Made by a program: the position numbers and the translations under genes. DNA of 64,000 nt, taken from assembly GCF_000378985.1 (NCBI RefSeq), contig NZ_KB905370.1, positions 847,830 through 911,829 on the forward strand. Direction: 5' to 3'. Of this stretch, positions 3,983-38,726 are shown piece after piece. The notes under the pieces are model-generated. The model searched no databases. It was not told where the DNA came from and worked only from the letters and a program-made list of their open reading frames with translations. The DNA comes from Ensifer sp. BR816 (GTDB taxonomy: Bacteria > Pseudomonadota > Alphaproteobacteria > Rhizobiales > Rhizobiaceae). Numbering within the stretch: position 1 is the first letter of the stretch; the number at the start of each line of letters is the position of its first letter.

Positions 3983-4099
3983 TTTTGACACTCCATTTTC
4001 TTGTTCTTGACGGAGGTCAAATAGGCATTTGCCTAAGATTTCAGTAGTTCCATGATTGCAAATTAGGCATGCACTGGACGCGTAGCCGGTTAACGCCGC

Positions 4100-4954
4100 T
4101 CAGAGCACGCCGCGCATCGGATGCGCCTTGTAGGTGCCGAGGATGCGGACGTTCTCCGAGAAGAAGCGCAGCTCGTCCATGGCGTGGCGCACCCCTTCGT
4201 CGTCCGGATGGCCCTCGATATCGGCATAGAACTGCGTCGCCACGAACTTACCGCCGAGCTGGTAGCTTTCGAGCTTCGTCATGTTGATGCCGTTGGTGGC
4301 AAAGCCGCCCATTGCCTTGTAGAGCGCGGCCGGGATGTTGCGCACGTTGAAGACGAAGGTGGTGATGATCAGTTCGTCGTCCGACTTGCGCGTCGTCCGC
4401 TGCTCCTCGCGCGACAGCACGACGAAGCGGGTGACGTTGCTGTCGGTGTCCTCTACGTTCTCGGCGAGGATTTCCAGCCCGTAAAGGTCGGCGGCCAGGC
4501 GTGGGGCGAGCGCTGCCATCGAGCGGTCGCCGGTCTCGGAAACGAGTTTGGCGGCTCCGGCCGTGTCGCCTGCGACGATCGGCTTCCAGCGGTTGGCGCG
4601 GACGATCTTGCGGCACTGGCCGAGCGCATGGATATGGCTGTGCACGGTGCGGATCTCATCGTGCCTGACGCCCGGAAGCACCATCAGCTGGAAGCGGATC
4701 GGCATGAAATATTCGCCGACGATATGGAGGCGCGATTCGGGCAGCAGGTGATGGATGTCGGCGACGCGCCCGGCGATCGTGTTCTCGATCGGAATCATGC
4801 CGAGATCGGCGTCGCCGTTCTCGACCGCCAGGAACGCGTCCTCGAATGTCTGGCAGGGCAAGGGCTCCATGGACGGGAACATGTCGCGGCAAGCCATGTC
4901 GGAATTGGCGCCGAAGTCGCCCTGGAAGGAAATCCTGTTGGTTTTGGCGGTCAC
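4100..4954 (-). CDS. pheA: Prephenate dehydratase
   Basis: A 284-residue monofunctional prephenate dehydratase that converts prephenate to phenylpyruvate in phenylalanine synthesis. The catalytic domain (about 1-185) opens [20 protein letters not shown], carries [11 protein letters not shown] and ends with the TRF motif ([10 protein letters not shown]). A C-terminal ACT domain (about 200-280) should give feedback inhibition by Phe. No chorismate mutase domain is fused, unlike E. coli PheA. The start is 14 nt downstream of the kdsB stop on the same strand, so kdsB and pheA are probably co-transcribed. Confidence 0.96.
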
Positions 4955-4968
4955 TTTGGCTTCCCCTT

Positions 4969-5715
4969 TCAGGCCGAGAGCAGGCGGCGGGCTTTTTCCA
5001 GGTCGGCCGGCGTGTCGACGCCGAGCGGCACGGAATTGACGATCTCGACGTCGATGCGCATCCCGGCCTCGAGCGCGCGCAACTGTTCGAGCGATTCGCG
5101 CTTTTCGAGCGTCGAAGGCTTCAGCGACACGAAGGTCTCCAAAGCCCTGCGCCGGTAGGCGTAAAGACCGATATGGTGATAGAGCGGCCCGGCACCATGG
5201 GGCGCCGTCGCGCGAGTGAAATAGAGTGCGCGCAGCCGGCTCTCCGACAGCGGCGACCCGACGACCTTGACGACGTTCGGATTGGTCTTCTCGTGCTCGT
5301 CGGTGATTTCGACCGTCAGCGTGGCGATATCGGTCGCGGCGTTTTCGAGCGGCCTCAAGGCGGCGCGGATCGGCCCGGGCTCGATCGTCGGCAGGTCGCC
5401 TTGGATATTGATGACGATCTCGGCCTCGCCATTGGGATCGGCCTTCCTGAGCGCCTCGTGGATCCGGTCGGAGCCGGACTGGTGATCGACACGCGTCATG
5501 ATCGCCTCGAAGCCGGCGTCGCGCACCGCCTCGTAAACCTCGTCATGATCGACGGCGACGACCACTCGGCCGACATCGGCCTCCGCGGCGCGCCTGGCGA
5601 CCTGGACGATCATCGGCAGGCCGCAGATGTCGGCGAGCGGCTTGCCCGGCAGCCGGGTGGAAGCCATGCGCGCCGGAATGAGCACAAGCGCCTTGCCCGA
5701 ATTTTCACGATTCAT
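4969..5715 (-). CDS. kdsB: 3-deoxy-manno-octulosonate cytidylyltransferase
   Basis: A 248-residue CMP-Kdo synthetase that activates Kdo for lipopolysaccharide inner-core synthesis. The N-terminal nucleotide-binding motif is [29 protein letters not shown] supplies the metal-binding acidic residues, and [13 protein letters not shown] is the family motif. The open frame extends far upstream, but the ATG at 5715 ([16 protein letters not shown]) gives the normal length. It precedes pheA on the same strand and diverges from the cytochrome c gene. Confidence 0.95.
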
Positions 5716-5871
5716 CGTCTTGCCTTCAAAAGCCCCGGAGAAAGTGTCAAAACGTCTCACTTCGGGGCCGATAATCTCTGTTGCAACGCAGAGCCAAAAG
5801 ACATAGGTTCCGCGCGATTTCAAGATGGGCCGGGTTTTTGTTTGCGCCGGTGGCAAAGGGAGCGTTTGCAG

Positions 5872-6507
5872 ATGAATCCATATGTGAACATGGGTGTGGG
5901 TGCCTTGTTGGGTACGGTCTTCGTGCTGATGACCGTGTCCATTGCTTCTGAAGGCATTTTCCATTCCGAAGCTCCCGAAAAGGAAGGTTTCGCGATCGTC
6001 GCCGAGGAACCGGCGGGCGAAGCCGGTGCGGCCGGCGGCGAAGAAGCGAAGCCGGAGCCGATCGGCCCGCTGCTCGCCAAGGCCGACGCCGCCGCCGGCG
6101 AAGCCGTGTTCAAGAAATGCGCAAGCTGTCACACCATAGAGAAGGGCGGACCGAACAAGGTCGGCCCGAATCTCTGGGGACTCGTCAACCGTCCGGTCGG
6201 CTCGCATGAGGGCTTCGCCTATTCGGCCGGCATGAAGACCTTTGCCGAAGGCGGCAAGGTCGTCTGGGACTACGACCACCTGAGCTACTTCCTCGAGGCG
6301 CCGAAGAAGCACGTGCCGGGGACGGCCATGGGCTTTGCCGGCCTGAAGAAGCCGGACGAGCGCGCCAACCTGATCGCTTGGCTGCGCGAAAAGGCGGACA
6401 GCCCGGCGCCGCTGCCGACGGCAGATGCAGCCGCCGCCACCGAAGCAGCACCGGCACCGGCTGAAGGCGGGCAGGCCGCCGCCCCCGCTCCCGCTCCGGC
6501 AAACTGA
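5872..6507 (+). CDS. cycM: Membrane-anchored c-type cytochrome
   Basis: A 211-residue class I cytochrome c. An uncleaved N-terminal signal-anchor (about 5-25) is followed by a Glu/Ala/Gly-rich linker, then the haem domain with CASCH at residues 83-87. The distal Met ligand is probably in [10 protein letters not shown]. An Ala/Pro-rich tail (about 180-211) follows the domain. It resembles rhizobial CycM, which carries electrons from the bc1 complex to the aa3 oxidase. It lies alone, with a strong terminator right behind it. Confidence 0.92.
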
Positions 6508-6528
6508 GCGTTCGATTTTCGATGAGGA

Positions 6529-6556
6529 AGCCCGGTCGATCGACCGGGCTTTTTTC
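6529..6556 (+). terminator. Rho-independent terminator of the cytochrome c gene
   Basis: An 11-bp perfect hairpin, AGCCCGGTCGA with TCGACCGGGCT, is followed immediately by a T-run. It sits 22 nt after the cytochrome stop codon. Confidence 0.9.
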
Positions 6557-6731
6557 GTCCTGGCAAAGGGATGACGAGGCCGATGCAACTTCTGTCGGAT
6601 TTTCCTTTGGCAATGTCTAAAATCTGTGCAAATGACAATGTGAACCCAACCAAATGCGATCCGGTCCGAGCTAAGTCCCGTCTTCACGACGAGCGGGACG
6701 GAACCGCTCGGAACGAAGGAGCGGACGATAG

Positions 6732-7829
6732 ATGACCAGCGGTGGTACAGAGACTTTCCTGTTCGAGACACATCCGAACCCCATGGCAGCGGGCGAGCGC
6801 GAGGCTCTGCTCAAGAACCCGGGCTTCGGCCGCGTGCTGACCGACCACATGGCGACGATCCGCTATTCGGAGGGACGCGGGTGGCATGACGCCAGGATCG
6901 AGCCGCGGAAAGCTCTGGATCTCAGCCCGTCTACCGTGGTGCTGCACTACGCCCAGGAGATCTTCGAGGGCATGAAGGCCTACCGCCTGCCGGACGGCGG
7001 CGCGACGCTGTTCCGGCCCGACGCCAATGCGCGCCGTTTCACCAACTCCGCCAATCGCCTGGCGATGGCGCCCTTGCCGGAAGAACTGTTCGTCGAATCG
7101 GTGCGCGCCCTGGTGCGGACGGATCGCGACTGGATTCCGGCGGCCGAAGGCGCCTCGCTCTATCTGCGGCCGTTCATGATCGCCACCGAGGCGATCCTCG
7201 GCGTCAAGCCGTCGTCCGACTATCTCTATTGCGTGATCGCCTCCCCGGTCGGCTCCTACTTCAAGGGCGGCGCACCGGCGGTCACCCTCTGGGTCTCGGA
7301 ACACTACACGCGGGCGGCGCCCGGCGGCACGGGCGAGGCGAAATGCGGCGGCAACTACGCGGCAAGCCTTGCCGCACAGGCGGAAGCAAGCCGCGAGGGC
7401 TGCGACCAGGTCGTGTTCCTCGATGCCGTCGAACGGCGCTGGATCGAGGAACTCGGCGGCATGAACATCTTCTTCGTCTTCTCAGACGGCTCGCTGCAGA
7501 CGCCGCCGCTCACCGGCACGATCCTGCCGGGCATCACCCGCGATTCGCTGATCACGCTGGCCCGCGACCTGGGCCTCACGGTGCGCGAGGAGCCCTATTC
7601 GATCGATCAGTGGCAGGCGGATGCCGAGAGCGGCCGACTGACCGAGGCCTTCGCCTGCGGTACGGCCGCGGTGGTGACGCCGATTGGCAAGGTGAAGGGC
7701 CGCACCCGCAACGTCACGATCGGCGATGGCGGTGCCGGCCCGGTGGCCCAGCGCCTGAAGGCGGCGCTGCTCGATATCCAGAACGGACGTGCGCCCGACC
7801 GGCACGGCTGGCTCGACCGGCTGTTCTAG
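6732..7829 (+). CDS. ilvE: Branched-chain amino acid aminotransferase
   Basis: A 365-residue fold-type IV PLP aminotransferase that carries out the last step of Leu, Ile and Val synthesis. Lys204 in [15 protein letters not shown] is the likely PLP Schiff-base lysine. [14 protein letters not shown] is the family motif near the cofactor. The length matches the long (about 360 aa) bacterial/eukaryotic-like branch rather than the 309-aa E. coli enzyme. It appears to be a single-gene unit on the + strand. Confidence 0.95.
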
Positions 7830-35494: not shown

Positions 35495-38400
35495 CTAATG
35501 CGCCTCGTCCCAGTTCTGCGCGGCGCGGGCGTCGACCTTCAACGGCACCCTCATGTCGAGGGCCGGCATGGCCGCGTTTTCCATCACCGACACGATCACC
35601 GGAAGAGTGCGCTCGATCTCGCTTTCCTCGACCTCGAAGATCAGTTCGTCATGCACCTGTAGCAGCATCCGGGCGGAAAGCTTGGCTTCCCCAAGCGCCG
35701 GGTCCATCTTCACCATGGCGCGGCGGATGATGTCGGCGGCCGAGCCCTGGATCGGGGCGTTGATGGCGGCACGCTCGTTGAAAGCGCGGTGCGATGGATT
35801 GGAGGAGCGGATATCCGGGTAATGGGCGCGGCGCCCGAAGATCGTTTCGACATAGCCATGCTCGCGGGCAAAGGCCTTGGTGTTTTCCATATAGTCGCGG
35901 ATGCCGGGGAAGCGTTCGAAATAGCGCTTGATATAATCGCCCGCTTCCGAGCGCTCGATCGAGAGCTGGTTGGCAAGGCCGAAGGCGGAAATGCCGTAGA
36001 TGATGCCGAAATTGATCGCCTTGGCGCGCCGGCGGATTTCGCCCGGCATGCCTTCGACCGGCACGCCGAACATCTCGGATGCGGTCATCGCGTGAATGTC
36101 GACACCGTCGGCAAAAGCCTGGCGAAGCTGCGGAATGTCGGCGACATGGGCCAGCACCCGGAGCTCGATCTGGCTGTAGTCGGCCGAAACCAGCCTGTGG
36201 CCCGGCGTCGCGATGAAGGCCGTGCGGATCTTGCGGCCCTCGGCGGTGCGGACCGGAATGTTCTGCAGGTTCGGCTCGGACGAGGAAAGCCGCCCCGTTG
36301 TCGTGGCGGCAAGCGCGTAGCCGGTATGGACGCGCTTGGTCTCCGGATGCACGTAGCCCGGAAGGGCGTCCGTATAGGTGGATTTGAGCTTGGTGAGCTG
36401 GCGCCAGTCGACGATCTTGCGCGGCAGTTCGTGTCCGACGGCGGCAAGCTCTTCGAGCACCGAAGCGGAGGTCGACCATTGACCGGTCTTCGTCTTCGAG
36501 CCTCCCGGCAAGCCCATCTTGCCGAACAGGATGTCGCCGAGCTGCTTCGGCGAGCCGATAGTGAAGGTCTCGCCGGCCAGCCGATAGATCTCGTCCTCGA
36601 GCGCTGCGGCGCCCTGCGCCAATTCGCCGGAAAGGCGCGACAGGATCTGCCGGTCAACGGTGATGCCGCGCTCCTCCATCTGCGCCAAGACGGCGACCAG
36701 CGGCCTTTCGAGGCGCTCATAGACGCGCGTCAGGCGCTTGGCGGCCAGCCGCGGCTTCAAGACATGCCAGAGACGAAGCGTCACCTCTGCGTCCTCGGCG
36801 GCATAGGCGGTCGCCCTGTCGATGTCGACGAAATCGAAGCTCACCGACGCCTTGCCGGTGCCGGCGACGTCCTTGTAGGGGATGGGCACGTGGCCGAGCC
36901 AACGCTCGGAGAGCGAATCCATGCCGTGCCCGCCGTTGCCGGCATCAACCACATAGGACATCAGCATGGTGTCGTCGAAGCTCTGCAGGACGATGCCGTG
37001 CCGCTTCATGACCAGATAGGCGTATTTCAGGTTCTGGGCGACCTTGAGCACCGACGGGTCTTCCAGCAGTGCCTTTAGCCGGCTTAACGCCTCCCGCGCG
37101 GGCACCTGATTTTCCACCAGGCCGCCGCCCAACAAGTCGCTGACGCCGTTCCTGTGGATCAGCGGCAGATAGGCGGCGCGGATGGTGCCCCCTAGCGGAT
37201 TTTTGCCGTAATCGGCAAACGCCATCGAAAAGCCGACGAGCTCCGCCCGCATCGGGTCGAGCGAGTTCGTCTGCGTATCGAAACCGAGAACGCCCGCCTC
37301 GCGCGCATCGGCGATCCACCGGTCGAGGGTTTCGAGATCGCGGATCGTCACATAGGCCGAATGATCGAAGGGCGCCTTGGCGAAGAAGTCCGCACGCGCC
37401 TGGGCCAGCTCCTGCGGCGTCGCGCCGGTGGCGTCCGCGTCGCCCATGCCCGTGAGGAAGGAAACCGCCGCCTTGGCGGCCGTCCCGCGCGGCGGCGCGG
37501 CACTCGATGATTGCGCCGTCGGCAGCGGCCCGGCGGCCTCGCCGACGTCGAGGTCCGGGCCATGCGCCGCAGCCCCCCACTCGACCGGCACATGCGCCGG
37601 TTCGATCGCCTCGGCGTCGGTCTCGGTCGCCGCCGCGACGCGACGCGTCAGGGTGGTGAACTCCATCGCCTTCAGGAAGGCGATGAGCCTGGGGCCGTCC
37701 TGCGAATCGAGCCGGAAATCCTCGAGCGGCACGTCGAGCGGCGTGTCCTTCCTCAAGGTGACGAGCTCGCGCGACAGGCGCGCCATCTCGGCATTGGCGA
37801 TGATCGTTTCGCGCCGCTTCTGCTGCTTGATCTCGCCGGCTCGCGCAAGCAGCGTGTCGAGGTCGCCATATTCTTCGAGAAGCTGCGCTGCCGTCTTCGG
37901 GCCGATGCCGGGAATGCCCGGCACGTTGTCGGTCGAATCGCCGGTCATCGCCTGGAGATCGATCATCTTCTCGGGCGGCACGCCCCATTTCTCGATGACG
38001 TCGGGGATGGTGATCTGCTTGTCCTTCATGCTGTCGTACATCGACACATTGGGGGTGACCAATTGCATGAGGTCCTTGTCGGAGGAGACGATGGTGACGC
38101 CGCCGCCCGCCTCCTCGGCAAGCCGCGCATAGGTGGCGATCAGGTCGTCCGCCTCGTAGCCTTCCTTCTCGATGCAGGGCAGGTTGAAGGCGCGGGTGGC
38201 GTGGCGGATCAGCCCGAACTGCGGGATCAGATCTTCCGGCGGCGCTGTGCGATTCGCCTTGTACTGGTCGTAGAGCGTATTGCGGAAGGTCTTCGAGGAA
38301 TAATCGAAGATCACCGCGAAATGCGTCGGCGTCACGCCGACCGACGTGTCGCGCGCATCGGTCAACAACTTCCAGAGCATGTTGCAGAAGCCAGCAACCG

Positions 38401-38509
38401 CATTGACCGGAAGCCCGTCCGACTTGCGGTTGAGCGGCGGGATGGCGTGGAACGCCCGGAAGATGAAGCCCGAGCCGTCGACGAGGAAGAGATGATCACC
38501 GTTTGTCAT
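35495..38509 (-). CDS. polA: DNA polymerase I with altered 3'-5' exonuclease site
   Basis: A 1004-residue PolA used in Okazaki fragment processing and repair. It has a 5'-3' exonuclease (about 1-300, LFLVDGSGFIFRAFHAI), a 3'-5' exonuclease domain (about 390-590) and a polymerase domain (about 620-1004; DYSQIELRVLAHV, RRRAKAINFGIIYG, QVHDELIFEV). In the proofreading domain, motif I reads FDTQTNSLD, so Gln413 replaces the metal-binding Glu. Motif II reads QNLKYAYL, so Ala497 replaces Asp. Motif III is intact (Tyr569, Asp573). The E. coli equivalents are Glu357 and Asp424. The polymerase itself looks intact. The start is ATG 38509. Confidence 0.97.
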   Translation of the reverse strand: MTNGDHLFLVDGSGFIFRAFHAIPPLNRKSDGLPVNAVAGFCNMLWKLLTDARDTSVGVTPTHFAVIFDYSSKTFRNTLYDQYKANRTAPPEDLIPQFGLIRHATRAFNLPCIEKEGYEADDLIATYARLAEEAGGGVTIVSSDKDLMQLVTPNVSMYDSMKDKQITIPDVIEKWGVPPEKMIDLQAMTGDSTDNVPGIPGIGPKTAAQLLEEYGDLDTLLARAGEIKQQKRRETIIANAEMARLSRELVTLRKDTPLDVPLEDFRLDSQDGPRLIAFLKAMEFTTLTRRVAAATETDAEAIEPAHVPVEWGAAAHGPDLDVGEAAGPLPTAQSSSAAPPRGTAAKAAVSFLTGMGDADATGATPQELAQARADFFAKAPFDHSAYVTIRDLETLDRWIADAREAGVLGFDTQTNSLDPMRAELVGFSMAFADYGKNPLGGTIRAAYLPLIHRNGVSDLLGGGLVENQVPAREALSRLKALLEDPSVLKVAQNLKYAYLVMKRHGIVLQSFDDTMLMSYVVDAGNGGHGMDSLSERWLGHVPIPYKDVAGTGKASVSFDFVDIDRATAYAAEDAEVTLRLWHVLKPRLAAKRLTRVYERLERPLVAVLAQMEERGITVDRQILSRLSGELAQGAAALEDEIYRLAGETFTIGSPKQLGDILFGKMGLPGGSKTKTGQWSTSASVLEELAAVGHELPRKIVDWRQLTKLKSTYTDALPGYVHPETKRVHTGYALAATTTGRLSSSEPNLQNIPVRTAEGRKIRTAFIATPGHRLVSADYSQIELRVLAHVADIPQLRQAFADGVDIHAMTASEMFGVPVEGMPGEIRRRAKAINFGIIYGISAFGLANQLSIERSEAGDYIKRYFERFPGIRDYMENTKAFAREHGYVETIFGRRAHYPDIRSSNPSHRAFNERAAINAPIQGSAADIIRRAMVKMDPALGEAKLSARMLLQVHDELIFEVEESEIERTLPVIVSVMENAAMPALDMRVPLKVDARAAQNWDEAH

Positions 38510-38726
38510 GCGGCCATGGATAGCGCGCGGGCAGGCAAAGGTCCATCGCGGTTTTGCTTGCAAACAGGAACTGCCATGCCCATTTCGGCACCCGGAATGA
38601 TACGGCATTCCCGGTCGTCAAACCGGATATTCGACGGTGAAGCGCCTCACGGAAACGTTACGCATTTGTAATGTGCGACTCAGTCGGACAATCCTTGAAA
38701 AGCCACATTTGAATCCTCAAATCAGG
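38510..38726. other. polA upstream region
   Basis: No coding potential supported. It should carry the polA promoter and, near its right end, the promoter of the small RNA: TTGAAA at 38695-38700 followed after about 17 nt by an A/T-rich hexamer. Confidence 0.5.

Follow-up and report, generated by a model that had tools for sequence, protein, structure and literature searches.

Proofreading by DNA polymerase I (Pol I) is regarded as a standard part of bacterial replication fidelity. The Pol I enzymes of Bacillus (Bst), Mycobacterium and Thermus (Taq) carry vestigial exonuclease domains with no known functional proofreading site. For the Escherichia coli enzyme we take the numbering of the key residues to be E357, D424, Y497 and D501, and the assignment of the exonuclease residues as ligands of two catalytic metals is one that we assume after Klenow.

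Substitution of D424 by alanine has been used to eliminate the 3'-5' exonuclease activity of E. coli Pol I, and with alanine at L361 the binding of DNA to that site is disrupted (PMC7952088, available excerpts); D424 and D501 carry the same numbers in the accessible parts of PMC3121766 and PMC7952088. The Pol I of Helicobacter pylori, as described in the excerpted text of PMC3121766, is full-length and preserves the exonuclease domain, with the metal ligands D355, D424 and D501 missing. This enzyme was shown to be without proofreading activity; it extends mispaired primers, carries out mutagenic bypass and has a part in mutagenesis (PMC3121766, same excerpts). In the sections available, a survey of PolA in 2,307 proteobacterial genomes reports whole-domain losses elsewhere and does not mention decay of the site in Sinorhizobium (PMC6403173).

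We analysed a 64,000-nucleotide stretch of DNA (the window) whose Pol I shares with E. coli Klenow the domain order, the predicted fold (Z 29.1, 1.7 Å), the motif positions and the equivalents of D355, D501 and Y497, whereas it has Gln and Ala where Klenow has E357 and D424. One of these changes, D497A, is the same as the engineered D424A, and E413Q falls on the E357 site of the D355A,E357A enzyme; unlike such engineered exo-minus Klenow and Pol I, the putative exo-minus state of the window enzyme is natural and one in a genus-wide series. In H. pylori the residues lost are D355, D424 and D501 and the lack of proofreading has been shown, whereas the window enzyme is known from its sequence. 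The two cases differ further in that the state varies between sister species of Sinorhizobium and that MutS is present there; H. pylori, to our knowledge, has no MutS. Pol I chains from Bacillus and M. smegmatis are among the fold matches of the window model, and no Taq chain is among the matches listed. The Bacillus and Mycobacterium domains represent old losses with heavy decay (16–20% identity to the model, against 43–44% for Klenow); unlike these and the old loss in Thermus, the losses in Sinorhizobium appear to be still in progress. A Pol I without proofreading is an already known kind, of which the window enzyme is probably another member. What looks new, against the literature searched, is that loss is under way repeatedly inside a single genus: the papers listed include none that describes loss of the Pol I exonuclease in Rhizobiaceae, Sinorhizobium included, and none on mutation accumulation in Sinorhizobium, both being weak evidence of absence.

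The polA gene and its exonuclease pocket

Residues are numbered from the ATG at 38509; the mechanical open reading frame of polA opens farther upstream, at 38608.

35495–38509, minus strand: polA, DNA polymerase I, 1004 amino acids (ATG at 38509, stop at 35495–35497; translation and Pfam)
37697–38509, minus strand: 5'-3' nuclease domain, residues 1–271, conserved (Pfam residues 7–271; pN/pS 0.061 in 15 genus pairs)
36734–37363, minus strand: 3'-5' exonuclease domain, residues 383–592, predicted fold intact and active site damaged (DNA_pol_A_exo1, 91.4 bits; pN/pS 0.209)
35498–36712, minus strand: polymerase domain, residues 600–1004, strongly conserved (Pfam DNA_pol_A, 525 bits; pN/pS 0.050 in the genus)
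37277–37279, minus strand: Asp411, a kept ligand (E. coli D355; codons and PDB alignment)
37271–37273, minus strand: Gln413 (CAG), replacing the Glu ligand (E. coli E357); within the window's clade, in this genome only
37259–37261, minus strand: Leu417, DNA-end contact kept in the window (E. coli L361 by alignment)
37019–37021, minus strand: Ala497 (GCC), replacing the Asp ligand (E. coli D424); common to clade members L082 and L083 (S. americanum)
36791–36805, minus strand: motif III, with Tyr569 and Asp573 kept (E. coli Y497 and D501; codons and PDB alignment)

A search of the window's own genome (6.95 Mb) returned a single polA match and no further one, ruling out a second copy there. The protein carries the Pfam domains 5_3_exonuc_N, 5_3_exonuc, DNA_pol_A_exo1 and DNA_pol_A, all above cut-offs, and its 5' nuclease, 3'-5' exonuclease and polymerase domains in one chain (Klenow match, E = 2.5e-173) identify it as a PolA. 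Motif I reads F410-D411-T412-Q413 and motif II Q492-N493-L494-K495-Y496-A497; in the PDB alignment, Q413 falls at the Glu of Klenow FDTET and A497 at the Asp of QNLKYD. The original prediction had placed Gln413 and Ala497 at two ligand positions of an enzyme that otherwise looked intact, and this reading is borne out by the minus-strand codons CAG and GCC on the E357 and D424 columns of the Klenow alignment, by the retention of Tyr569 and Asp573 and by the strong conservation of the polymerase domain. Its further statement that D424A abolishes proofreading agrees with the use of that variant to eliminate the E. coli exonuclease (PMC7952088, in the parts available). In place of the four acidic ligands of a proofreading Pol I (D355, E357, D424 and D501), the window enzyme thus has two together with Gln413 and Ala497. 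It retains the DnaQ-like exonuclease fold and the motif III Tyr, and it resembles the H. pylori type in that the exonuclease domain is present and catalytic ligands are missing.

An AlphaFold2 model of residues 380–604, built from a 101-sequence alignment, has a mean pLDDT of 94.9, and its closest PDB structures are E. coli Klenow chains, with 43–44% identity (1kfs: Z 29.1, r.m.s.d. 1.7 Å, 208 residues aligned, 43% identity; 1d8y by Foldseek: E = 6.7e-22). A full-length model from 26 sequences (mean pLDDT 52) was left out of the analysis. The window domain is therefore predicted to be a folded DnaQ-like exonuclease minus two of its four acids. Because the fold appears to be kept, the domain has most likely lost its proofreading function, and the polymerase and 5' nuclease domains next to it are conserved. 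With the E357 and D424 equivalents gone, the fold retained and the site decaying in sister species, the suggestion that this Pol I is non-proofreading gains support by analogy, and the enzyme is most likely without exonuclease activity.

Ligand states in the genus, the family and the class

We assembled 193 PolA loci, comprising 33 genus genomes, 80 loci from named genomes and 80 stretches from other family members. Removal of 23 identical proteins left 170 PolAs, 33 from Sinorhizobium and 137 from other Rhizobiaceae, none of which contains a stop codon; the genus and family names were assigned through identical or closest named loci. The named loci are the best 80 of 586 and are skewed to close relatives, and the 80 family stretches were hand-picked among the matches listed in a 247-genome family sample, 60 of them as one per genus; six of the 247 genomes gave no match. 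Of the 33 genus genomes, two are less than 90% complete.

At least one acidic ligand has been replaced by a non-acidic residue in 21 of the 33 Sinorhizobium PolAs against 7 of the 137 from other Rhizobiaceae (Fisher p = 6e-13, relatedness ignored). Swaps between Asp and Glu are the only change in a further four Sinorhizobium PolAs and in one outside, all four acids are kept in eight of the 33 Sinorhizobium species, and the genus assemblies deviating at these columns number 25 of 33. Written as residues 411/413/497/569/573, the genus states are DEDYD (8), DADYE (8), DQGYD (3), DEAYD (2), GQGYD (2) and DEDYE (2), with DQAYD (the window), EAAYD, DEGYG, EEDYE, DAGYG, EGDYN, DAEYE and EEDYD seen once each. 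S. meliloti 4H41 PolA carries both E to Q and D to G. Leu417 is replaced by another residue in 13 of the 21 Sinorhizobium PolAs that have lost a ligand and in none of the 12 others of the genus. As to whether the whole genus shares the window's state, which the original prediction had left aside, most of the genus has indeed lost ligands (21/33), but not the same ones.

Outside the genus, 129 of the 137 distinct PolAs read D/E/D/Y/D at these columns; two read REDYG, and DQAYD, DEEYD, RQDFE, EAGYN, DRDHD and AADFD occur once each. In other families of the class, the canonical DEDYD was found in 40 of 40 PolAs, these being the highest-scoring among the matches listed, with one passed over; 132 of 142 genomes in that sample, the window's own included, had a match. 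Judged by these residue states, loss of the Pol I exonuclease ligands is sporadic across Rhizobiaceae.

Several individual loci deserve mention. The Rhizobiales isolate R129_A (L023, PolA at 4001–7024), which belongs to another genus, has the same E to Q and D to A pair as the window, and no ligand is missing in L021 and L030, its relatives at about 95% identity. Acidic ligands are lost in L162 (RQDFE), L164 (EAGYN), L166 (REDYG), L167 (DRDHD), L171 (REDYG) and L184 (AADFD), from six different genera, and three of these six have also lost the motif III Tyr. The reduced genomes G038, G107, G124 and G212 (1.0–1.4 Mb) gave weaker PolA matches, in several pieces in three of the four, and the family member G103 (1.9 Mb) gave no PolA match at the cut-off.

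Trees, parsimony and recombination

The polA tree was built from the 5' nuclease and polymerase codons, with the exonuclease domain excluded, for 129 of the 170 sequences (the genus together with sequences more than 77% identical to the window). Sinorhizobium forms one clade in this tree (support 64), and its sister (support 100) is a group of seven DEDYD sequences, Ensifer adhaerens and E. sesbaniae among them. Over these 129 of 170 sequences, parsimony at the four acidic columns places 23 changes within the genus, where the branch length is 1.67, and 4 outside it, where it is 8.9.

As a lost-or-kept label, the site needs six changes within the genus. If a loss is never undone, nine losses are counted on the polA tree and eight on the trees of mutS alone and of mutS with polA; with restorations permitted at equal cost, the counts become three to four losses and two to three restorations on the polA tree and two to five of each on the mutS trees, the highest loss count there being five with two restorations. 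All of these counts take the ancestor as intact, and mutS, which lies about 257 kb from polA, yields similar numbers whether used alone or together with polA.

The losses fall into groups defined by different substitutions: the window with L082 and S. americanum L083 (D497A); L084 (D497A); L090/L094 (D497G and D573G); a D573E clade, mostly with E413A as well; L097 (D411E, E413G and D573N); and the S. meliloti group (E413Q and D497G, plus D411G in two of its members). The window lineage acquired D497A first, a change that it shares with S. americanum, and E413Q is present in the window genome alone. Taken together, the residue states and trees point to repeated losses across Sinorhizobium by way of different substitutions.

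A reading on which a few original mutations were spread or undone by recombination, in place of many separate losses, is unlikely. In its favour, equal-cost parsimony prefers few losses with restorations, and in the D573E clade related motif I variants alternate with a canonical motif I in L109 and a near-canonical one in L093. In L084, codons 460–499 (a 40-codon stretch) are closest to the Ala-bearing L082 (0.900), whereas for the overlapping stretch 480–519 the nearest sequence is the Asp-bearing L085 (0.958), ahead of the Ala-bearing species (0.883–0.925). This second stretch speaks against the recombination reading, as do the variation of the substitutions by clade (Ala, Gly, Gln, Glu and Asn) and the similar counts from the mutS trees, alone or with polA. 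Some ligand alleles may nevertheless have moved by recombination.

Constraint on the domain and its explanation

We compared pN/pS in 15 independent pairs within the genus and 48 outside it, at tree distances of 0.01–0.45 and with genus–outside pairs dropped. The summed values for the 5' nuclease, exonuclease and polymerase domains are 0.061, 0.209 and 0.050 in the genus and 0.080, 0.156 and 0.069 outside; nonsynonymous differences stand at 351:177 (exonuclease:polymerase) in the genus against 1339:1071 outside (Fisher p = 4e-6, relatedness ignored). For the exonuclease and the polymerase, respectively, the values are 0.074 and 0.025 in three Ensifer-group pairs and 0.149 and 0.081 in five further pairs from outside the genus. 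In four genus pairs, picked by hand, neither member has lost a ligand, and their values are 0.219 (exonuclease), 0.052 (polymerase) and 0.097 (5' nuclease); in one of these pairs, L091–L092, the exonuclease value is 0.105 and the 5' nuclease value an odd 0.447. Since such ligand-intact pairs show a raised exonuclease pN/pS too, the relaxation seems older than the visible ligand losses.

Sites conserved outside the genus (at most two changes in 96 outside sequences) have undergone 93 changes on 91 sites of the exonuclease domain within Sinorhizobium, compared with 22 on 286 in the polymerase and 21 on 187 in the 5' nuclease. The four ligand sites account for 23 of the 93 (permutation, 0.00014), and the hardest-hit positions, 417, 413, 412, 411, 497, 570 and 573, lie in the pocket. 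Frequent change also occurs away from the ligands, at 542 (five changes) and at the less conserved 469 and 548 (seven each), and 56 of the 91 conserved exonuclease sites, including Tyr569, Lys495 and Glu572, are unchanged in the genus. At positions 1 and 2 of the ligand codons we counted 16 changes over 8 positions in the genus against 4.32 per fourfold site, and 4 over 8 outside against 19.06, which corresponds to 46% and about 3% of the fourfold rate, respectively. In the genus the ligand codons thus change about half as fast as neutral sites and show no sign of exceeding the neutral rate. As a separate observation in the 5' nuclease domain, residue 255 (window 37745–37747) is invariant in the 96 outside sequences and has changed five times in the genus, where it is Asp in 27, His in 4 and Asn in 2.

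Our preferred reading, which we hold to be very probable, is that the window encodes a Pol I with a dead or nearly dead 3'-5' exonuclease, as one case of a genus-wide release of constraint. On this reading Pol I proofreading would have been dispensable from the base of Sinorhizobium or near it, and catalytic residues would then have been lost repeatedly, lineage by lineage, leaving the catalytic ligands among the most-changed sites and the fold kept, presumably as a scaffold for the polymerase. E413Q and D497A would take away ligands of both catalytic metals, such that a mispaired primer end would reach a well-folded pocket and find no hydrolysis there, and the enzyme would dissociate or extend the mismatch. 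By analogy, the enzyme would polymerise and nick-translate normally without editing, and the remaining errors would fall to other layers, namely the DnaQ-type proofreader of Pol III and MutS mismatch repair. A strong RNase_T (DnaQ-type) match, which is a family match only, is present in all 53 genomes examined, including 28 from Sinorhizobium, and MutS in all 33 genus genomes; we infer that errors can therefore be caught elsewhere, with DnaQ and mismatch repair as backup.

Loss of MutS in Sinorhizobium is ruled out by the same 33 of 33. Among candidate replacement exonucleases, PF01612 has three matches in 50 of 53 genomes and four in G001 and G024 (genus) and G125 (outside), with no gain in Sinorhizobium; PF00929 has one to six matches in 28 genus genomes and one to four in 25 others, with no clear step; and neither PF10108 nor PF00136 (B-family polymerases, for example Pol II) has a match in 30 genomes, of which 15 belong to Sinorhizobium. 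No gain of any of the four is seen at the base of the genus, and therefore none of them explains the release.

Several points weigh against release. Purifying selection still acts on the exonuclease domain (pN/pS about 0.2), and its looser constraint relative to the polymerase is seen outside the genus as well. The eight of 33 PolAs that keep four acids, the four with swaps alone, the frequent changes at 542, 548 and 469 and the 64% support for monophyly of the genus may each be read in the same sense, and recombination may have spread or restored alleles. If release is the correct reading, Sinorhizobium, including the model S. meliloti, would offer stages with four acids kept, with one lost and with several lost together with the substrate contact, a natural series for asking when the Pol I proofreader is dispensable and what covers for it. 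Proofreading should not be assumed for S. meliloti or for Pol I of the window type.

A different account, which we consider improbable, is that the loss was adaptive. Selection would have switched off Pol I proofreading in Sinorhizobium, the exo-minus state being favoured for better lesion bypass or strand displacement or for more useful mutation; the pocket would have been inactivated in each lineage and the domain retained as a non-catalytic DNA-handling or scaffold module of a mismatch-extending, lesion-bypassing Pol I. If true, Pol I would shape the mutation supply of these symbionts. The repeated change of the same few catalytic residues beside 56 of 91 untouched conserved sites fits this account, as does the H. 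pylori enzyme, which extends mismatched primers, performs mutagenic bypass and adds to mutagenesis (PMC3121766, in the excerpts available). However, the ligand codons change at about half the fourfold rate and not above it, the four hand-picked ligand-intact pairs share the raised exonuclease pN/pS of 0.219, as relaxation predicts, and the site is kept in 129 of the 137 PolAs from other Rhizobiaceae.

Release of constraint is compatible with a nearly dead enzyme, and weak residual activity in the window Pol I is possible because it keeps D411, D573, Y569 and Leu417. The stronger proposal, that Asp411, Asp573 and Tyr569, perhaps with neighbours, sustain slow or altered proofreading, is very doubtful. 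Three of the five motif residues and Leu417 are indeed kept in an intact predicted fold, but in E. coli Pol I the single change D424A serves to abolish the exonuclease (PMC7952088, in the text available), and sister species lose other ligands, Leu417 and neighbours with no convergence on a new set. By eye, no recurring replacement acid that might serve as an alternative ligand appears in the motif strings.

Sequencing or assembly error at both codons, which the original prediction had named as a possible refutation, is virtually out of the question, for Ala497 is also found in three other Sinorhizobium assemblies (L082, L083 and L084) and 25 of the 33 genus assemblies deviate, although Gln413 occurs within the window's clade in this one assembly, with the same E to Q change recurring in the S. 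meliloti group.

We also noted the structure of the contig that carries the window (G000:C1, 6.13 Mb; window at 847830–911829). It bears polA, mutS, an RNase D-like gene and, at 4.298 Mb, repC. The relative G009 has a repC with the same open-frame length (438 amino acids) on a contig apart from the 3.97-Mb one that bears polA and mutS, and G008 has a 6.48-Mb contig with repC. Contig G000:C1 looks like a chromosome–chromid cointegrate or an assembly join.
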